Shown here piece by piece: positions 7,776 to 16,284 of a stretch of DNA of 64,000 bases. How positions within the stretch are numbered: position 1 is the first letter of the stretch; the number at the start of each line of letters is the position of its first letter. A program made the translations under genes and the position numbers. The notes beneath the pieces are model-generated. The model saw only the letters and a program-made list of their open reading frames with translations. It had not been told where the DNA came from and made no database searches. Origin of the DNA: Lysobacter panacisoli (GTDB taxonomy: Bacteria > Pseudomonadota > Gammaproteobacteria > Xanthomonadales > Xanthomonadaceae); NCBI RefSeq assembly GCF_009765165.1, contig NZ_VLNU01000001.1:1913001-1977000 (forward strand), read 5' to 3'.

Positions 7776-8547
<772 letters not shown>

Positions 8548-8550
8548 AGT

Positions 8551-9762
8551 TCAGCGCCAGGCGCTGCCGACCTGGATGTACAGCGTCTCGTCTTCGGGAC
8601 CCCAGGCGTAGTCGGCGCCCACGTACAGGCGCAGCATGCGCGCGATCAGGTAGCGCACGCCGGCGCCTTTCGCGACCTGGCTTTGCGCCTCACCGAAGTC
8701 GTTGCGCTCGCCCCAGGTGCGGCCCGCACCGAGGAAGCCGATCAGGGCCCAGCGCGGTGTCATGTTCCAGCGCAATTCGGTTTCCATCGTGGCCGCGCGC
8801 GTGTCGACGTAGCGCGCCGACCCGATGCCGCGCAGGTCGATGAAGGGCAGGCGGTAGAACGGGATGTCGCCGTTGGCCCAGCGCGCGTCCACGCGTCCGC
8901 CGAGCACGAACCGGTCGTCGGCAAGCGGAAGATAGGCGTAGACATGGCTGCGATAGCTCTGGAAATCCACATCGCTGCCGATCGCACCGTCGTAGAAGTT
9001 GCCTTCGATCATGCCCAGCCAGCCGCTGTTGGGCGTGAACGAGTTGTCGCGCTGGTCGTACTGCAGCGACAGGCCCAGTCCCGAAGTGCGCTCCGACAAC
9101 TCCTCGTCGCTGAAGAGTTCGCGATCGGAGTCGACGTCGAAGCCGAGATCCAGGTCCATGTACGTCCACGACAGTCCCAGGAACAGGTCCTGGTCGCCGA
9201 GCCGTCGCGCCATCTTCTGAAACGACACCACGCCATCGGCGTTGTAGCCGATCGCCACCGGTTCGATGAGTTCGCCGGGTGTGTAGAAGTCGAGGTTGAA
9301 CGAGGACTTGGCGATGCCGCCGGTATAGCGCCACAGGTCGTCCTTGAAGTGCAGCATCGCGCCGCCACCGTACGCGTAGCTGCCGTTCTCGGTCTTCAGC
9401 GCCATCGCACCGAAGATGTTGGGTGCGATCTGCTGCTCGCGTCCGTCGGCGGTCTTGCGGGAGATCGCCGCGCCCGCGGGGCGATGGAAGAACACCGCCG
9501 CGAGTCCGCCGCCGTAGCCTACGGCCGGATCGCTGATGATGATCGGCACGGGCAGGAAGCCCTTGTGGTCGAGCAGCCAGCGCGACATGTCGAGGTCGCC
9601 GTCCTTCGCGTCGTGCAGGAGGTCGCCCTTGTTCGCAGTGTCGTTCGTCTCCTGCACCGTTGAGGATCCGGTTGCGTCCTGCGCGGAGGCATCAAGGGCG
9701 AACATGCCGGACAGGCATGCCGCGCACAGCATGCCGGCGACGGTCAGCCTGCGGCGCCGCAC
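8551..9762 (-). CDS. BamA/TamA-family outer-membrane barrel protein
   Basis: A protein of about 403 residues that ends in a surface-antigen (Omp85-type) barrel. It has a signal peptide (LTVAGMLCAACLSGMFALDA), then a short periplasmic part and repeated amphipathic strands; typical pieces are SLQYDQRDNSFTPNSGWLG (the D15 signature with D-R-D and P..G), LPFIDLRGI with the RGI/RGF-like turn, and a C-terminal strand ending IQVGSAWR. No POTRA domains are obvious, so it is a short barrel-only member. I chose the GTG at 9762, 7 bases after the upstream stop; an upstream in-frame start would overlap the previous gene by 74 bases. It is the last gene of the six-gene operon. Confidence 0.85.
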   Translation of the reverse strand: MRRRRLTVAGMLCAACLSGMFALDASAQDATGSSTVQETNDTANKGDLLHDAKDGDLDMSRWLLDHKGFLPVPIIISDPAVGYGGGLAAVFFHRPAGAAISRKTADGREQQIAPNIFGAMALKTENGSYAYGGGAMLHFKDDLWRYTGGIAKSSFNLDFYTPGELIEPVAIGYNADGVVSFQKMARRLGDQDLFLGLSWTYMDLDLGFDVDSDRELFSDEELSERTSGLGLSLQYDQRDNSFTPNSGWLGMIEGNFYDGAIGSDVDFQSYRSHVYAYLPLADDRFVLGGRVDARWANGDIPFYRLPFIDLRGIGSARYVDTRAATMETELRWNMTPRWALIGFLGAGRTWGERNDFGEAQSQVAKGAGVRYLIARMLRLYVGADYAWGPEDETLYIQVGSAWR

Positions 9763-9769
9763 GGTGAGC

Positions 9770-10591
9770 TCACTTCGGCGGAACCAGGAACGTGACGACG
9801 AAGCGGAGGCCCCAGTCCGGCCCACCCGTGGGCGCATCGGCATAACCGCGCACGCCGCCTGCGAAGCTCATCATCTGGCTGCCCACGCGCGTGACCTTCG
9901 AGTACGTCACGTTGATCGGCACCGTCCATTGCTGGTTCTCCCAGTCGTAGGTCGACTCGGCGTTGAAGGTGAGCGTGCGTCCGCCGGGCAGGTGCTTGGC
10001 GAAGAAGGGCTGCAGGAAGGTGTTGCTGATGTCCGGATCGTTGCTGGAACCCGCCACCGACCAGATGTGGTTGGCGAGCACGCCGATCGTCCATCCGTGG
10101 GTTTCGGTCAGCACCAGCACGCTGGGGCCGGCGCCCCATTGATCGGGCCCGAGCAGGTCGTCGCTCGCGGTGGGCAGCAGGAACACCGGGCCCACGCCCC
10201 ACGTGATGCCGCCCTTGGTGGGCTGCTTGGGCGAGAAGAAGAACGTCGGGTTGATATCGCCCAGTCCGAACTGGCTTCCTGATTTGCCCGCGATGTCGTC
10301 CTGGTAGATGACGGGAACGATGATGCGCGAGATCAGGTTCCAGTCTTCCGATATAGATGCGGGGATCACCGGCTGTATGTTCAACGTGTGGCGCGTGCCG
10401 TCCTCGCTCCCGTAGCCGAAGTCGGCGTTGTACTGCAGCGGGATGCTGATCAGCGACGCGACGGGGTTGGAGAGCTTCTTCGCCAGTTCGTCGGCGCTGT
10501 CCTGGGCCGATGCGGGGCCTGTCGTGATCGCAAGTCCGATCAGCGCTACGAGGGTCAGCCCGGCGCGGGCCTGCTTCACGGATGGATTCAT
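9770..10591 (-). CDS. Outer-membrane barrel protein, transporter-like (unknown)
   Basis: A 273-residue exported protein with a signal peptide (residues 1-29, ending GPASAQ). The mature part has alternating beta strands and short periplasmic turns (FGLGDINPTFFFSP, ITWGVGPVFLLPT, WGAGPSVLVL, WTIGVLANHIWS), with a final strand WGLRFVVTFLVPPK ending near the stop as barrel proteins do. Such proteins are often labelled 'transporter' or 'neuromedin U' in databases, labels that carry no tested function. It lies 19 bases after the SphA-like gene and 7 bases before the Omp85-type gene, so it is in the same transcript. Confidence 0.8.
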   Translation of the reverse strand: MNPSVKQARAGLTLVALIGLAITTGPASAQDSADELAKKLSNPVASLISIPLQYNADFGYGSEDGTRHTLNIQPVIPASISEDWNLISRIIVPVIYQDDIAGKSGSQFGLGDINPTFFFSPKQPTKGGITWGVGPVFLLPTASDDLLGPDQWGAGPSVLVLTETHGWTIGVLANHIWSVAGSSNDPDISNTFLQPFFAKHLPGGRTLTFNAESTYDWENQQWTVPINVTYSKVTRVGSQMMSFAGGVRGYADAPTGGPDWGLRFVVTFLVPPK

Positions 10592-10610
10592 GCCATTCCC
10601 CGGCAGCGGA

Positions 10611-11561
10611 TCAGAACGTGACCGTAGCGGTGACCATCAACGGATCGCCTTCGATGCGGCGCTTCACGTCGAATTCCGCCATCCAGCGTGCGGCGAACTC
10701 GACGCTGCCGCCGTCCCACTTCCTGCTGTAGGTGACGATCGGGCCGAGCGCGAGCGCGTGGCCCTTGAAGCCGTCGAGGCGATCGGCGGTGGGACCTTCA
10801 TCCTTCTCCAGCTGCTGGATCCAGCCACCCGCGCCGCCGACGCCCCAGCCGCTCGGGAAACGCTTGATCAGCAACGTGTCGAGACGGAACACCGCGCCGT
10901 TCTGGTAATCGGTGGCGTCGTTCTCGGTGTAGAAATCCACGGCGGCGAGCGTGCTGAATTCCAGCGTGCCCTTCTGCATCAACTGGGTGTAGCCGATGGT
11001 CGGCGAGTAGGTCCAGGTGTTGAGGCTGAGGTTGGCCAGGCTGTTGGGGTCGTAGCTGCCCCAGTCGCTGTAGATGTACAGCGCCAGCGTCATGTGGCGC
11101 GTCTGGTCGAAGTGGTAGCCGGCGATGATCGGCGCGAAGAACGGATCGAACAGGTCCCAGTCGGCCTTGTCGGTGCGCGTGCCCGTGAGGTTGCCGATCG
11201 AGACGTTGGCGTCCACTTCGACCTGCGCGACGGGCAGGGTGAACATCGAGGCGAAGTTCCAGTGGCCCGGACCGGTGTCCCACACGTACACACCGGCGAA
11301 CGACACGAGGTCGAAGGTCGCGTCCAGGCCGAGCGTGACCTGGTTGCCGATCGGCACCTGCCGTTCGGCGCCGATGTCGCCGGAGTAGTGCACGTAACCG
11401 ACCAGCAGATTGAAGCCGGGTTCGGGAGGCACGACACCGGCGAACTGAGTGATGTTGGTGCCGGTGATGGTGCGTCCCAGCGCACCTTCGGTCGCCAGTG
11501 CGGGCGCGAGCGGCAATGCCGCGAGGACAAGCGTGCTGGCGAGGAGCGTGCGTTGTTTCAT
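10611..11561 (-). CDS. SphA-like outer-membrane protein (phenol-degradation MetA family)
   Basis: A 316-residue exported beta-barrel. A signal peptide (residues 1-23, ending APALA) is followed by strands typical of the 'MetA-pathway of phenol degradation' family: PPEPGFNLLVGYVHYSGDIG, WDTGPGHWNFASMF, WDLFDPFFAPIIAGYHF and WTYSPTIGYTQLMQKGTLEF. Members are thought to be channels for hydrophobic molecules; Pseudomonas SphA is a sphingosine-induced relative. The final residues (PLMVTATVTF) end on an aromatic as outer-membrane proteins do. No aromatic-degradation genes are nearby, so the cargo here is unknown. Third from the end of the six-gene operon. Confidence 0.85.
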   Translation of the reverse strand: MKQRTLLASTLVLAALPLAPALATEGALGRTITGTNITQFAGVVPPEPGFNLLVGYVHYSGDIGAERQVPIGNQVTLGLDATFDLVSFAGVYVWDTGPGHWNFASMFTLPVAQVEVDANVSIGNLTGTRTDKADWDLFDPFFAPIIAGYHFDQTRHMTLALYIYSDWGSYDPNSLANLSLNTWTYSPTIGYTQLMQKGTLEFSTLAAVDFYTENDATDYQNGAVFRLDTLLIKRFPSGWGVGGAGGWIQQLEKDEGPTADRLDGFKGHALALGPIVTYSRKWDGGSVEFAARWMAEFDVKRRIEGDPLMVTATVTF

Positions 11562-11614
11562 CAGCGGTTCTCCGCGATCGAGTGTGTTCGTCCTGCGTTG
11601 CCGTCTTCGCGCGA

Positions 11615-14215
11615 TCAGCGCCGGCGGCCGCCGCCGCCACGGAAGCCGCCGCCCATGCTCGGACGGAAGCCGCCTGCGGGTCGGCTGTATCCGCCAGCAG
11701 GTCTGCTGTAGCCACCGGCAGGTCGCTGGGGACGGTTCGTGTTCATGGAGCGCTGGAAGCCGCCGTCGATACGCTCGTTGCCGCGCTCGCGCGCGAAGCG
11801 TTCATTCTCCAGTCCCGGCGGCGGATTGTCGCGACGCGCGCCTTGTCCTTCGGGACGATCCACCTTGGTCCAACCACCGTCGTCGTCGTGGCGATACACG
11901 TTGCCATCGCGACCGGCGTAGACGTTGTCGTTGACCTCGACCACGCCGCCCTTGTGGAAGGTTCCGGTGTCGGCGTTGTAGTGGAAGCCGCCCGCGCCGC
12001 GCGCATCGACGCGCCTGCCTTCGCTGTCGAACGCGCCCGCACCCGCCGCGCCTCCCTGGCCGGCGACCGCGCCACCCGCGCTTTGGGTCACGCGGCCGGT
12101 ATTGGTGTTGATCGTGGTGCGCTGCCCGCCCGCGGCGGCCTGTCCGGTGTACGGATTGACCGCGACGCCACCGCCGCCGGCGACGACGCGTCCGGTCTGC
12201 GGGTTGTAGCGGATGCCCTGCGCACCGGCGCGCGTGGTGCCGGTGTAGACGTTGGTGTTGACGCCGGCGCGTCCGATGCCGCGACCACCGGTGGCCTCGT
12301 TGTAGAAGCCGCCGCGTGCGGCGCGTCCGACATTGCCTGTCCACGGATTCGCCCACGCGGCCGCGGTGCCACGCACGGCGGCGTTGCCCCAGCTGCCATA
12401 GACATTCCACGCCGCGGCGCCGCCGCCCCACCAGCCCCACGGATACGCCGGGCCGTACCACGGCCCCCACCACGGGTTGTACGGACCGTACCAGCCGCCG
12501 TACCAGCCCCAGCCCCAGCCGAAGGTCCATCCGACCCACGCGTTCCAGCCGAAGTACACGCCCATGCCGTAGGTCGCCGGGCAGCCGTACCAGTACGCGC
12601 CGACCCACGGATCGCAGACGTAGCCGGTGCCGTAGACCACGACGTCGTCGCTCACCACCGTGCCGTAGTAGCCGGGTGTGTAGCCGACGTACACGTCGTC
12701 GCCGCTCTGTCCGTACACGCGAACATATGTCACGTAGTGCAGCGGCGAACTGGTCGGGATCGCATAGATCTCCGCGGGCACGCTGGTCGCGACCGTCCAC
12801 GGACCGGTCGGCGAAGTCGACGTGAACCAGATGCCCTTGTCGACTGCGTAGTAGCTGTCCATCGCGACGCGGATCACCGGCACCGCGGTGTTGTGCGCGT
12901 ATTGCAGCTGCGTGCCGCCGATCGGCTGCCATTGCGGCGCGCCGTCGTACTGCACGGTCAGCTTCGCCTGTCCCTTGTTGACGGTGGCGGTCTGCGGAAT
13001 GTCGTTGGCGATCAGCGATTCCTTCGATTCCGGCGTCCCCGGGATCGACGCGAGCACGCCGCTCTTGGGGCTGTCGGGCGGGATCTTCGCGAACTCCGCC
13101 GGCAGCTTCGACGGCGATACGTAGGTCCACGGACCTTTCGCACCCGGCGCGGTGAACCAGCGTCCCGACACCAGCACGTACCACGCATTCCCGCTCGCGC
13201 CATCGACGAACACGTCCGCCCCGGTGTTGTCGATGTAGCTGAGCTTCGTGCCCGGCACGTCGACGAACTGCGGTTCGCCCTGCACGGAGATGAGCTCGGC
13301 CGGTCCCGTGCGCACGTAGATATCCGGCACGCGGCCGGCAGCGAAATCCTGCTTGAGCGCATCGGGCGCCTGGTCGAGCGCATCGACCTGCTTGCTCGCC
13401 ACCGCCTCGTCCTTCGCCTTCACCAGCGAGGCGTCGACATTCGCGACCGGCGACCACGGGCCGTTGACGGTCGGCGCACTGGCCCAGTGGCCCGCAACGA
13501 CGGTGTAGAACGTCGCGCCCTTCTGCAACAGCAGCGAACGCGAGTTGATCACGCGCTGCACGCCGGACGATCCGGTCGGCTTCAGGATGGGCTTGCCATC
13601 GACCAGCATCAGCACGGCCGGCGTGGTGCTGAAGATGATGTCAGGCGGATCGTTGCGCACCGGCAGCGAGTCGGGCTTCTTCGCGTCGACGTTGGCGATC
13701 GCCATCGCCGATTCGAGCTGGTCGAGCGAGATCGTCAGCGTCGATCGCTGCTTGAGCTGTTCGCGCGCCAGTTCGAGGTACTGCGTCTGCTTGGCCGTCG
13801 CGGTGGGGAAGCTGGCACTCGGCAGCTGTATGTCGCTCAGCACCACGGCGCGCGCGCCCTTGTCCACCTGCGTGCGCGCCTGGAACGACACCACGCCGTA
13901 ATCGGTGGTGTCCTGCGCCTTGCCATCGGGACCGGTGTGCGTGCCGGTCTTTACCGACATCGCGAAGCGGCCCTTGAGCTGGTTGCCTTCCCAGCTGTCG
14001 AACTGCGGCTGGTGCACGCTGAACTGCGTGCCGCGCAGGGTGAAGTCGCGCGGGAACGGACGTGCGTCGATGTTCTTTCCGCTGTCGTCGGCTGCCGCCG
14101 CGGATTGCATCGACAGCGTCGCGTTCGTTGCGGCGCCGGACGTTCCCGGAACGAAGGGCGCGCCGAGGAGCGCGAGGGAGAGTGCAGTGACGGCCAGCGT
14201 CGCGAACGTGCGCAT
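11615..14215 (-). CDS. Large secreted repeat protein (carbohydrate-binding V/XII-like), Trp/Tyr/Gly-rich
   Basis: An 866-residue exported protein. After a signal peptide (about 1-28) comes a 160-residue domain, then three repeats at about 199-257, 305-366 and 417-475, each ending in G-x-W-(F/A)-x6-8-G-P-W (GHWASAPTVNGPW, GRWFTAPGAKGPW, GIWFTSTSPTGPW). This resembles short carbohydrate-binding modules of families V/XII, though binding is untested. Residues 505-615 are extremely rich in Trp, Tyr and Gly (WGWGWYGGWYGPYNPWWG). A Gly/Asn/Thr-rich tail carries a GNVYRHDDDGGWTKVDR unit and ends in PAGGYSR repeats and GGGGRRR. The Arg-rich end argues against a barrel anchor. It lies in the middle of the six-gene operon. 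Confidence 0.8.
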   Translation of the reverse strand: MRTFATLAVTALSLALLGAPFVPGTSGAATNATLSMQSAAAADDSGKNIDARPFPRDFTLRGTQFSVHQPQFDSWEGNQLKGRFAMSVKTGTHTGPDGKAQDTTDYGVVSFQARTQVDKGARAVVLSDIQLPSASFPTATAKQTQYLELAREQLKQRSTLTISLDQLESAMAIANVDAKKPDSLPVRNDPPDIIFSTTPAVLMLVDGKPILKPTGSSGVQRVINSRSLLLQKGATFYTVVAGHWASAPTVNGPWSPVANVDASLVKAKDEAVASKQVDALDQAPDALKQDFAAGRVPDIYVRTGPAELISVQGEPQFVDVPGTKLSYIDNTGADVFVDGASGNAWYVLVSGRWFTAPGAKGPWTYVSPSKLPAEFAKIPPDSPKSGVLASIPGTPESKESLIANDIPQTATVNKGQAKLTVQYDGAPQWQPIGGTQLQYAHNTAVPVIRVAMDSYYAVDKGIWFTSTSPTGPWTVATSVPAEIYAIPTSSPLHYVTYVRVYGQSGDDVYVGYTPGYYGTVVSDDVVVYGTGYVCDPWVGAYWYGCPATYGMGVYFGWNAWVGWTFGWGWGWYGGWYGPYNPWWGPWYGPAYPWGWWGGGAAAWNVYGSWGNAAVRGTAAAWANPWTGNVGRAARGGFYNEATGGRGIGRAGVNTNVYTGTTRAGAQGIRYNPQTGRVVAGGGGVAVNPYTGQAAAGGQRTTINTNTGRVTQSAGGAVAGQGGAAGAGAFDSEGRRVDARGAGGFHYNADTGTFHKGGVVEVNDNVYAGRDGNVYRHDDDGGWTKVDRPEGQGARRDNPPPGLENERFARERGNERIDGGFQRSMNTNRPQRPAGGYSRPAGGYSRPAGGFRPSMGGGFRGGGGRRR
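11667..11728 (-). repeat. Tandem coding repeat PAGGYSR
   Basis: Near the 3' end of the large repeat gene, an approximately 24-base unit occurs three times in tandem, coding RPAGGYS, RPAGGYS and RPAGGF. The copies are nearly identical in DNA, so length variation by slippage between strains is plausible. Confidence 0.75.
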
Positions 14216-14245
14216 GGAAGCCTCTTCGGCGAAAGGAGCGGGATG

Positions 14246-14800
14246 TCAGTTCGGCGGATTCACCACGACGTACTGCACGTTCGTGCCTGCGTATTGCGGC
14301 TGGTACCAGGTGCTGCCGCATTGCTGGTAGGCGACGCCGTTGACGACGGTGGTCACGCAGCTGGGCGGCACCGAGTAGACGATCGAGCCGATCACGGCGG
14401 ACGTGATCGCGGCCGTGGCGGTGACTGCGGCCGCTGTCGCGACGGGATGGTCGTACCAGCCGTCGTGCCAGTCGTTGTCCACGTCGATGTCTATATCGTT
14501 GTGGATGTTGACGTCGCGATTGATGTTGGTGTTCCGGTTGACGTTGGTGTTGCGGTTCACGTTCCGGTTGGACGCGGCGCTGCGGTCGATGTTGCCGCCC
14601 CGGTTCGCGGCGGCAGCGTGGGCGCCGCCACCGGAACGCGCCGCGGCATGTCCGCCGCCGCCGGCGTGGTTGACGCTGGTGCGCGCGCCGCCGCGCGCGC
14701 GCGGCCCGGCGTCGGTATCGAAGGTGACGGCCAGCAGCGCGGTGGTGCCAGCGGAAAGGCACAGCAGGGCGACGATCGTTGCGGGACGAAGCGCGTTCAT
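14246..14800 (-). CDS. Exported protein with alternating Asn/Asp repeat
   Basis: A 184-residue protein of unknown function. It has an N-terminal signal or anchor (ATIVALLCLSAGTTALLAV), a Gly/Ala/His-rich linker, then about 33 residues (near 80-112) in which almost every second residue is Asn or Asp, alternating with Val, Ile, Thr or Arg (NVNRNTNVNRNTNINRDVNI). A hydrophobic helix follows (AAITSAVIGSIVYSV), and the end has two Cys (PPSCVTTVVNGVAYQQCG) and an aromatic strand with YVVVNPPN. The ATG at 14800 overlaps the stop of the DUF2092 gene by 4 bases, which fixes the start and couples the two genes. Confidence 0.75.
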   Translation of the reverse strand: MNALRPATIVALLCLSAGTTALLAVTFDTDAGPRARGGARTSVNHAGGGGHAAARSGGGAHAAAANRGGNIDRSAASNRNVNRNTNVNRNTNINRDVNIHNDIDIDVDNDWHDGWYDHPVATAAAVTATAAITSAVIGSIVYSVPPSCVTTVVNGVAYQQCGSTWYQPQYAGTNVQYVVVNPPN

Positions 14801-15594
14801 GGCGAAGCCTCCTGTGCAGCGGCGACATCCACTTCGACCAGCTTGATGCGTTGCGCGTCCTTTGGTGGCATGAACGTGAAGGCGGCGTCCTTCAGCGCGG
14901 CGCTGGTGTTCCAGGTGAGCGTGCTGGCGTACTGCGGGTGCGCGGGATCGTCGGTGGTCGTGATCACCAGGCGGCGCGGCAGCGGCTTCTCGCCGGCCTC
15001 GATCCACACCTGCCAGTCCACGCCTTCCTGGCGGAATGCGTACTGCTCGGTGACGCTGCCTCCGATGCGTGCGGGTCCGACGAACACCGCCGACGTCAAT
15101 GCCGAGGACGGCGCACGATCGGTGCCCCACAGGAACAGGTCTGCCAGCGGCAATTCGATGCCGTACTTGTCGTCGATCGCAGCAAGCAGCGCGCTGATGG
15201 TGGGCGGGGCGTCGGTGCTCGCGTAGAGCTTGTTCTTCGGACCGTAGACGGTGAGCGTCTTGCCGTCGTAGAAGATCTCGCGCTGCTTGCGATCGGTCTT
15301 CATCTCGAGATGCAGGCCGTTGGGCGCGCGCACCTTGTAGTCGATCGTTCCCGGGAACTCCAGCTTCTGCCCGTCTTCCGTCACCACGTCGATGGTGGAA
15401 TCGCCATGCACGGTGAAATTCTTCAGTGTGCGCAGGTAGCGTCCCATCTTCTCCAGCGCGGCGACTGCTTCGGGCTGCACCGTGGCCGCTGCTGTCGCTG
15501 CGGCTGCCGACGGTGGCGATGAGGTCTGGTCGGACGCCGCGGCCGTCGCCGACAGCGACAAGCTCAAGGCCAAGCACAACACGGAATGACGCAT
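14797..15594 (-). CDS. DUF2092 family periplasmic protein
   Basis: A 265-residue exported protein, first gene of the six-gene operon. A signal peptide (residues 1-20) is followed by an Ala/Ser-rich linker and the DUF2092 domain (about 40-258): LEKMGRYLRTLKNFTVHGDSTIDVV, then KVRAPNGLHLEMKTDRKQRE, FYDGKTLTVYGP, and DLFLWGT. The pattern of a long amphipathic half-barrel is reminiscent of LolA/LolB-type lipoprotein carriers, and the family is often compared with them; a lipid-binding role is therefore a reasonable guess, not shown. AGGAGG lies 6 bases before the ATG. Confidence 0.88.
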   Translation of the reverse strand: MRHSVLCLALSLSLSATAAASDQTSSPPSAAAATAAATVQPEAVAALEKMGRYLRTLKNFTVHGDSTIDVVTEDGQKLEFPGTIDYKVRAPNGLHLEMKTDRKQREIFYDGKTLTVYGPKNKLYASTDAPPTISALLAAIDDKYGIELPLADLFLWGTDRAPSSALTSAVFVGPARIGGSVTEQYAFRQEGVDWQVWIEAGEKPLPRRLVITTTDDPAHPQYASTLTWNTSAALKDAAFTFMPPKDAQRIKLVEVDVAAAQEASP

Positions 15595-16025
15595 CTCGCA
15601 CCTCCTCGATGACCCGGTGTCTGCCGGGTGCGGAATCCGCGCGTCGTCCGCGCGGCGCTGGCGGTCAACGTTCGAAGCGGGGCGTCACGGTGATGACGTC
15701 CGTGGATGCGGCGATGCCGCGTCCGGTGCGATGGGCGGGGGAATGCGTGCGAGTCGATCTCTTCCCACGGTCCTGCTCCCTGCTGGCGGCACCTGACGTG
15801 TGCGATGCGGGTGCATCCGCTGCTTGCAGCGGTCCTCCGATTGCATGACGTCGGCACGCATCCACGGTGCCGGATTCATCGCCGATACATCCTGCGCGGA
15901 AGCCGTGAAAGAGCCGTGATGGGTGTTCAGGAAGACGCCGTTCCCGCGAAACGGCAGTGAAACGGAAACGCCGATCGTTCATGACCGGGCGAATCGCCAC
16001 GCGACACCGGTATTAGGACGCGAAA
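15595..16025. other. Gene-free leader and promoter region of the six-gene operon
   Basis: This 431-base stretch between the tRNA terminator and the DUF2092 start has no convincing gene on either strand. A small perfect inverted repeat (ACCCGG, 6-base loop, CCGGGT) sits at 15612-15629, immediately upstream of the DUF2092 ribosome site, and could be a leader hairpin. The long leader suggests room for regulation of the operon. I could not place promoter boxes. Confidence 0.4.
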
Positions 16026-16053
16026 CAAAAAACCCCGCGCATGGCGGGGTTTT
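16026..16053 (-). terminator. Terminator after tRNA-Met
   Basis: A 10-base-pair stem (AAAACCCCGC / GCGGGGTTTT) with a 5-base loop lies about 35 bases after the tRNA 3' end. On the minus strand it is followed by a T run, as expected for an intrinsic terminator. Confidence 0.85.
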
Positions 16054-16088
16054 CCTGCGAACCGGCGGCGCCGTTCGCGATGTCCGAA

Positions 16089-16165
16089 TGGTGGCTATGG
16101 GTGGACTCGAACCACCGACCCCAGCATTATGAGTGCTGTGCTCTAACCGGCTGAGCTACATAGCC
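16089..16165 (-). tRNA. tRNA-Met (elongator, anticodon CAT)
   Basis: A 77-base cloverleaf on the minus strand: acceptor GGCTATG/CATAGCC, D-arm GCTC/GAGC with AGCCGGTTA loop, anticodon arm CAGCA-CTCATAA-TGCTG, variable loop GGGTC, T-arm GGTGG-TTCGAGT-CCACC, discriminator A and an encoded CCA. It closely resembles the enterobacterial elongator metT gene. The first pair is G-C, which excludes initiator tRNA. A CAT anticodon could also mark the lysidine-modified tRNA-Ile, but the anticodon stem and acceptor fit Met better. Confidence 0.93.
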
Positions 16166-16284
16166 ACGCGGAGAACCGCGAATTATTCATGCCGAAGGGG
16201 TGGTCGTCAATCGTCCGCCGCCGGCTTGTCCTTGCGACCGGGGGCGTGGCAGAGTCGGGGACAGTGAATTCAGGAGTCCGCATC

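Follow-up and report, generated by a model that had tools for sequence, protein, structure and literature searches.

Six open reading frames (ORFs), here called genes A to F, lie tightly packed on the minus strand at positions 8551–15594 of a 64,000-nucleotide stretch of the Lysobacter panacisoli genome (contig NZ_VLNU01000001.1, positions 1,913,001 to 1,977,000), which is referred to below as the window. From A onwards these are A (14797..15594), a LolA-like DUF2092 protein of 265 aa; B (14246..14800), an Asn-rich exported protein of 184 aa with a weakly DUF6515-like C-terminus; C (11615..14215), an exported repeat protein of 866 aa; D (10611..11561), an outer-membrane channel of the COG4313/PF13557 type (316 aa); E (9770..10591), a second barrel of 273 aa; and F (8551..9762), a POTRA-less Omp85 barrel (403 aa when started from GTG 9762). 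They form a real but variable putative operon, which is associated with a module of formylglycine-generating enzyme (FGE) and sulfatase (FGE–sulfatase) in its gene content, coupling, co-location, co-inheritance and protein families, and in the FGE and sulfatase signatures of the partner locus.

An earlier note on this DNA had described six packed minus-strand genes with two overlaps. The packing was confirmed by the ORFs and by the intergenic distances (−4 nt for A/B, 30 nt for B/C, 53 nt for C/D and 19 nt for D/E). The first overlap, an ATGA shared by A and B, stands, whereas the 74 nt overlap of E and F arises only when F is started at ATG 9843 as originally listed (8551..9843, minus strand, 430 aa). 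GTG 9762, which is 7 nt past the stop codon of E, would start F as VRRRRLTVAGMLCAACLSG..., and a product begun there aligns with two orthologues, L034 and L035, which start ‘MRR...’, so that GTG 9762 is most likely the real start and the overlap of E with F is probably owed to the choice of start codon. Purifying selection was detected on all six genes (ratio of non-synonymous to synonymous substitution rates, dN/dS, 0.15–0.26 against the orthologues of genome G008). A search of window positions 8400–16200 gave no match to a sigma-70-type promoter, nor was a conserved promoter seen 5′ of A, where a ribosome-binding site, in some rows, was almost all that nine aligned upstream stretches shared. 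Signal peptides were judged by eye, and genes were called with a home-made program whose start codons beyond the window are approximate.

Gene A matched PF09865 (DUF2092) in Pfam with E 6e-68. All seven matches of its profile to the PDB up to E 0.1 were LolA chains, weak ones (E 0.019–0.049), and the NCBIfam lolA model gave E 0.031 and 13.7 bits against a cut-off of 112. A published fold assignment, in the excerpted text of PMC4520260, places DUF2092 in the LolA superfamily; as this agrees with the PDB matches, the idea that A may be a lipid carrier was upheld. Compared with the LolA/LolB lipoprotein carriers, to which it is weakly similar, A is a patchy accessory gene coupled to B. Neither of the two additional A copies of Lysobacter that were looked at (L084 and L085) has any of B to F in its surroundings.

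Gene B contains Asn-rich repeats of the N-x-N type and had no Pfam match above cut-off, its C-terminus reaching E 0.0048 and 17.2 bits with PF20125 (DUF6515), under the cut-off of 24.9. The Asn-rich part is absent from some relatives (L059 and L063). In Gloeothece the gene after A belongs to PF20125 (E 1.4e-15). A 4-base overlap of A with the next gene was present at four of the seven plasmid A loci (Paracoccus, Thiodictyon, Sinorhizobium and Azospirillum), and the B profile matched that next gene in the first three of these genera, not in Azospirillum. In Sinorhizobium (L063), a DUF1254 gene follows the A pair. A repeat common to B and C, both of which have a Y-x-x-x-G-x-W-Y look, was considered and rejected, the profile comparison giving a probability of 4.9 % at most.

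Gene D matched PF13557 (E 7.9e-43, 148 bits against a 22-bit cut-off) over residues 71–309 of its 316, and the COG4313 channel 4rl8 of the PDB with E 0.0027 in a single stretch of 85 profile positions. With the signal peptide cut by eye behind ALA, the predicted mature protein would start at residue 24 as TEGALG and thus have Glu2 and Gly6, the N-terminal plug residues named for Pput2725 in the excerpted text of PMC4493636; among 19 sequences Gly29 of D is invariant and Glu25 nearly so. D had been called SphA-like, which is correct only in so far as D belongs to the COG4313/PF13557 family. It is like the channels Pput2725, SphA and TcpY in its PF13557 and 4rl8 matches and in Glu2/Gly6, and differs from them by its LolA-like, Asn-rich and C neighbours and its co-occurrence with FGE–sulfatase, as well as by a PTG motif that is not intact. 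For COG4313 channels, the same excerpt (PMC4493636) suggests that what they take up is hydrophobic or amphipathic, and argues against hydrophilic substrates.

The partner genes lie at a second locus in Lysobacter. Each of the 12 Lysobacter genomes sampled, the window genome (G000) included, gave a strong match to FGE (best E 4e-82 to 5e-87). In the window genome, the series DUF202, sulfatase, HAD, FGE and DUF1622 occupies C1:3.198–3.203 Mb, approximately 1.27 Mb from the gene set. The surroundings of FGE were read in four of the 12 genomes: G010 and G003 have the same series as the window genome, and G005 has DUF202, two sulfatases, HAD and FGE, with no DUF1622 there. At these four loci (L115–L118) one sulfatase each contains CTAGR and every FGE contains GSHLCAPNYC, which we take to fit, respectively, the sulfatase signature C-x-P/A-x-R and the paired active-site cysteines of FGE. 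The partner locus thus resembles known pairs of FGE and type I sulfatase, and differs in being tied to the envelope genes A, B, D and F, a tie that was not found in the titles and abstract starts of the papers listed by the literature searches.

Co-inheritance was followed in 197 genomes of the Xanthomonadaceae. Matches were counted at author-chosen thresholds (A, 1e-10; C and the control, 1e-20; F, 1e-40; D, 1e-60; sulfatase, 1e-120), and up to four candidates per genome were scored for C and up to seven for the sulfatase. Of the 197 genomes, 22 have A, 16 have C, 20 have D and 25 have the sulfatase; F was counted in 14, besides one remnant, and the F fragment of G009 was excluded from the count. 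The sulfatase was present in all 20 genomes with D, in 20 of the 22 with A, 12 of the 14 with F and 14 of the 16 with C; outside Lysobacter, the corresponding values were 12/12, 12/14, 7/9 and 6/8. At the genus level, all six genera with D fall within the eight sulfatase genera, out of 54. The iron permease gene adjoining the gene set, which was used as control and occurs in 71 of the 197 genomes, contrasts with D in being accompanied by the sulfatase in 19 of the 71. Measured by hand in the genomes outside Lysobacter, the distance to a sulfatase match was at most 5.1 kb for D in six of the 12 genomes with D, and at most 5.6 kb for F in five of the nine with F.

The neighbourhoods of A in Xanthomonadaceae outside Lysobacter were set against 20 control stretches of 17 kb each, drawn from 11 of the genomes concerned. 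The 14 A loci in this comparison represent 13 of the 14 non-Lysobacter genomes with A (G409, with fragmented contigs, was excluded) together with L050, which was found through C; one place was taken per genome, though L077 has two A genes, and L067 ends at a contig end. B was near A at 13 of the 14 loci. FGE was near A at nine loci, DUF4136 and DUF202 at seven each, D and DUF1622 at six each, patatin-Omp85 at five, and sulfatase and HAD at four each, and none of these, B included, occurred in the 20 controls; a response regulator was present at 8/14 loci and in 2/20 controls. Since patatin-Omp85 and F share a barrel, their hits can cross, and the Lysobacter patatin hits at L026 and L031 are probably F. 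D immediately precedes A–B in L050, L072, L076 and L077. The longest version was found in Pseudoxanthomonas Root630, in the order DUF202, sulfatase, FGE, DUF1622, D, A, B, DUF4136, C, broken F, HAD, a gene with a weak match to E, sulfatase and DUF3313; Pfam identified two of the Root630 sulfatases, and one more was recognized by eye. A, B, C and D stand together with a broken F in L050, which was tabulated among the A loci. Among the plasmid C loci, one of five (L056, Agrobacterium) has C followed by a relative of D, HAD and FGE, and L056 and L050 are the only C–D neighbourhoods that were seen outside Lysobacter. A conserved membrane-like protein of 388–391 aa, recognized by eye, lies near A at six of the 14 loci (e.g. 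L050:371-1537 and L072:14319-15494) and had no Pfam or NCBIfam match. Upstream of A–B in L068 (9754-16709; G491), genes resembling phage structural genes were noted by eye.

Within the 12 Lysobacter genomes, the composition of the set varied. C–D was at the locus in all 12 and A–B in 10 (not in G002 or G007), whereas E and an intact F were each at the locus in seven, and all six genes were together in four (G000, G008, G001 and G003). Where present in the 11 congeners, the genes keep strand and order. Co-occurrence of all six had been put forward as a check on the putative operon; as a block the six do not hold together, whilst sub-modules do, namely A–B and C–D within Lysobacter and D–A–B in other genera. 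No match to F was found anywhere in G004, G005 and G011, and G007 and G009 have remnants only. The five genomes without E at the locus have relatives of E elsewhere that are 56–64 % identical, one of which, in G005, adjoins DUF1622 and DUF202 genes. A genome-wide search of G007 found A as a distant copy elsewhere only. Judged from presence and absence and from the C tree, these patterns look like repeated losses of E, F and A–B, with C–D kept in all 12.

Several features were noted upstream of the set. Between rppH and the gene set, a tRNA-like sequence with a CAT anticodon was seen by eye on the minus strand at window positions 16089–16165. In G011 (L029), G002 (L035) and G007 (L036), a DUF2383-like gene and a response regulator were seen by eye 5′ of the set; the first two loci also have heme oxygenase-like and bacteriophytochrome-like genes upstream, likewise by eye, which were not seen in the window.

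Of the remaining barrels, E had no Pfam match at E ≤ 1 and no PDB match up to E 10; a relative in Paracoccus yeei is annotated ‘transporter’. F matched PF01103 (Omp85) with E 3.6e-11 and 43.6 bits against a cut-off of 24, over residues 219–415 of the 430-residue version, and model NF047779 with E 1.2e-18, yet below the cut-off of that model. Neither a POTRA match at E ≤ 1 nor a patatin match was found in F with Pfam, and its three PDB matches (E 0.21–0.41) are to unrelated proteins. An LRGI stretch in F sits where Omp85 proteins carry a VRGF-type loop motif. Of the features of assembly/secretion proteins of the BamA and TpsB types, F shows the Omp85 barrel, with no match to their POTRA domains. 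We take the nearest known systems to be POTRA-less Omp85 barrels and patatin-Omp85 proteins of the PlpD type; F shares the Omp85 barrel domain with them, and related loci have patatin-Omp85 fusions close to A, whereas F itself has no patatin match. A second, partial F-like barrel was noted in G001 (L114, G001:C1:2104000-2121000) at G001:C1:2112130-2112615, with a sulfatase-like gene (L114:14202-16403) some 6 kb away.

The large protein C matched no Pfam or NCBIfam family at E ≤ 1, and hence no carbohydrate-binding domain of Pfam (CBM5/12) either; a single match to PDB sequences (E 0.3) was not meaningful. An AlphaFold2 model had a mean predicted local distance difference test (pLDDT) score of 53.7, with ten-residue means mostly of 64–92 in the N-terminal domain and repeats, and confidence mostly below 50 past about residue 527 (residues 527–769 under 50). 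The N-terminal beta domain (residues 54–178; 13682..14056, minus strand as are all segments of C; ten-residue means 64–86, and 46 at the end) was aligned in 17 of the 18 rows of alignment A1. Three repeats follow, at residues ~188–270 (13406..13654; hhalign 99.25 against repeat 2 and 98.7 against repeat 3), 294–380 (13076..13336; hhalign, pLDDT means 75–88) and ~418–495 (12731..12964; hhalign probability 99.05 against repeat 2). A Trp/Gly/Tyr-rich region at residues 505–620 (12356..12703), modelled with low confidence, had the lowest pN/pS (0.10) among the five C segments compared, and the tail is basic and rich in Gly/Arg.

Relatives of C are variously equipped. Some, in plasmid records, are annotated ‘carbohydrate-binding family V/XII’ or ‘SH3 domain-containing protein’, names that contrast with the absence of a Pfam match in C itself. 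A scan of seven relatives gave SH3_3 in two plasmid copies (L056 and L057) and LysM in one (L055, also on a plasmid). A lipobox-like signal was present in four C copies (L037, L080, L081 and L082), none of which has A, B or D close by, and was absent from the 12 Lysobacter copies; a lipobox pattern in the Pseudoalteromonas C (L058), which sits ahead of the hydrophobic stretch, was excluded from the count. In the C tree the four lipobox copies form one clade (93/92), separate from the Lysobacter clade (96/95). A lipobox is missing from some other copies that lack A, B and D nearby, for example L039, L042, L045 and L051, so a C gene on its own does not always go with lipidation. As relatives with LysM, SH3_3 or a lipobox-like signal indicate an envelope location, C is probably an envelope protein whose anchoring differs by lineage. 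Copy L037 (G050:C1:1464349-1466916) is a lipobox-like C in the genome of another family, 66 % identical to that of the window, and G050 also has its own distant C; this suggests horizontal transfer of L037. An N-terminal fragment of C was noted beside a DUF1254/DUF1214 gene at L073:14795-16734, about 6 kb from A–B. Across the class, a profile search found C in at least three of 276 genomes, including G000 and G021, a count that may be too low with up to three candidates scored per genome.

The COG4313-like D, the LolA-like A and the FGE–sulfatase/HAD locus together suggest the handling of amphipathic molecules, possibly sulfate esters. Our tentative preference, which we hold at somewhat less than even probability, is that the gene set is the envelope half of a modular, split and co-inherited system that is linked to the sulfatase and handles amphipathic compounds, perhaps sulfate esters. 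The enzymatic half in Lysobacter would be the DUF202, type I sulfatase, HAD hydrolase, FGE and DUF1622 genes of the second locus. D and E, as COG4313-type channels, would pass an amphipathic molecule across the outer membrane, and the LolA-like A, produced with its partner B, would shield it in the periplasm. C may be a beta-repeat scaffold or binding protein, either secreted or envelope-attached, and F an Omp85-type accessory barrel for inserting or flipping a partner, either lipid or protein. The substrate would then be processed by the FGE-activated sulfatase and the HAD hydrolase. DUF202 and DUF1622, which by eye resemble membrane proteins, could supply the inner-membrane step, which is a guess; with no signal peptide seen on the sulfatase and HAD of the window genome, such a step is otherwise missing from the model. 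To what class the substrate belongs, which way it is transported and what B, C, E and F do are inferred. The earlier note had also mentioned a route for hydrophobic compounds, and this part of it is favoured because D is COG4313-like and uptake of hydrophobic or amphipathic molecules has been proposed for that family in the excerpted text of PMC4493636. A narrower form of the same idea, in which COG4313 channels and A (with B) feed sulfate-ester lipids or surfactants to the distantly encoded FGE-activated sulfatase, is doubtful as it stands; C and F would be lineage-specific accessories in this ‘sulfo-amphipath’ route, with the anchoring of C (free, lipidated, LysM or SH3) varying by lineage, and its outer-to-inner-membrane logic would be analogous to that of FadL or Lol carriers.

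A number of observations weigh against the sulfatase-linked reading. The match of A to LolA is weak, and the PTG motif of the proposed lateral gate is not intact in D, which has SDWGSYDP where 4rl8 has PTG (the family consensus at this place being P-x-G). No signal peptide was seen by eye on the sulfatase or HAD of the window genome. D was near a sulfatase match in none of the eight Lysobacter genomes sampled, and two genomes with A (G401 and G406) have no sulfatase. The iron permease control was itself associated with the sulfatase above chance (19/71 genomes, P 1.6e-5) and overlapped with A (18/22, P 4e-6) and D (16/20, P 3e-5), so that common descent or a common lifestyle contributes to the profile signal and inflates the simple P values. 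Of all members, C has the weakest association: C, E and F were near A at just two of the 14 loci each (P 0.16), C being absent from 12 and a fragment at one of the other two, and all 15 of the non-Lysobacter C loci tabulated, several of them cut by contig ends, are without A, B and D nearby. In G021, C and F are adjacent (L038) without A, D or the sulfatase. An amphipathic sulfate ester is a putative substrate only.

Part of the same evidence may be read as outer-membrane lipid homeostasis, in which A and F, together with patatin-Omp85, YSC84-type and DUF4136 proteins, would move or repair the lipids or lipopolysaccharide of the cell itself under envelope stress, the sulfatase being a neighbour of convenience or acting on a sulfolipid made by the cell. 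The LolA-like A, the patatin-Omp85 genes near A at 5/14 loci, the patatin and YSC84 genes beside A in Eleftheria, the patatin gene before C in Pseudoalteromonas and the excess of response regulators near A (8/14 loci against 2/20 controls) are all consistent with this explanation, which is possible, though it appears rather unlikely given that A occurs in just 22 of the 197 Xanthomonadaceae, a patchy distribution for a core function, that the family of D is tied to the uptake of external hydrophobic molecules in the excerpt of PMC4493636, and that the tightest link is with the sulfatase and FGE. The co-inheritance of the sulfatase would also suit the use of a sulfated polysaccharide, with C as a glycan-binding surface protein, D, E and F as pores on the glycan side and the sulfatase desulfating oligosaccharides. 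The most conserved segment of C is its aromatic-rich region, and two C relatives among the matches listed are annotated as carbohydrate-binding family V/XII; against this, C is without a Pfam match at E ≤ 1, the 10 cluster proteins scanned gave neither a glycoside hydrolase nor a lyase, and the excerpted COG4313 structure paper (PMC4493636) argues against hydrophilic substrates, which makes a polysaccharide improbable.

The earlier note had proposed, as one of two possibilities, a dedicated export or surface-display system for C, taken here as one in which F, with D or E, secretes or displays it. C and F do share the gene set of the window, are adjacent in G021 (L038) and are divergent neighbours in L041 and L044. 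This explanation is nevertheless not supported and very unlikely: F is absent or broken in five of the 12 Lysobacter genomes, all of which retain C, and so is not a dedicated exporter of C, and E too is at the locus in just seven; F has no POTRA match and tracks A (13 of 14 genomes with F) more than C (10 of 14); of the 15 C loci tabulated outside Lysobacter, several of them cut by contig ends, three have F and none has A, B or D nearby, against which stand L050, with A to D and a broken F together, and L056, with C next to a relative of D; and relatives of C have lipobox-like, LysM or SH3 N-termini. Export of a functional amyloid or matrix, with D acting in the manner of FapF and B as fibre or nucleator, hardly seems credible. 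FapF has been compared structurally with the COG4313 channel Pput2725 (PMC6173800, excerpt), and B, with its N-x-N-type repeats, belongs to the same gene set as D. FapF has a long periplasmic coiled-coil N-terminus, whereas fewer than 50 residues separate the mature start of D (24) from its PF13557 match (71), leaving little room for such a periplasmic domain; the predicted mature N-terminus of D fits the short plug of Pput2725 (PMC4493636, excerpt) instead, and the Asn-rich part of B is missing from the relatives L059 and L063. The BiofilmReg operon of Burkholderia (PMC5192318, excerpt) was also considered; the common ground is one DUF4136 gene only, and it was set aside as a different system.

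No description of the whole gene set was found among the papers that the literature searches listed, as judged by titles and abstract starts. The gene families are known, and their association with the FGE–sulfatase module is the new element, not found in print by these searches. DUF2092 proteins, their Asn-rich partners and repeat proteins annotated ‘carbohydrate-binding V/XII’ occur in several proteobacterial groups, and no assigned role was found for them. The tie to FGE–sulfatase provides a testable hypothesis for DUF2092, DUF6515-like, DUF202, DUF1622 and DUF4136 proteins together, and suggests amphipathic sulfate esters as a place to seek their substrates.

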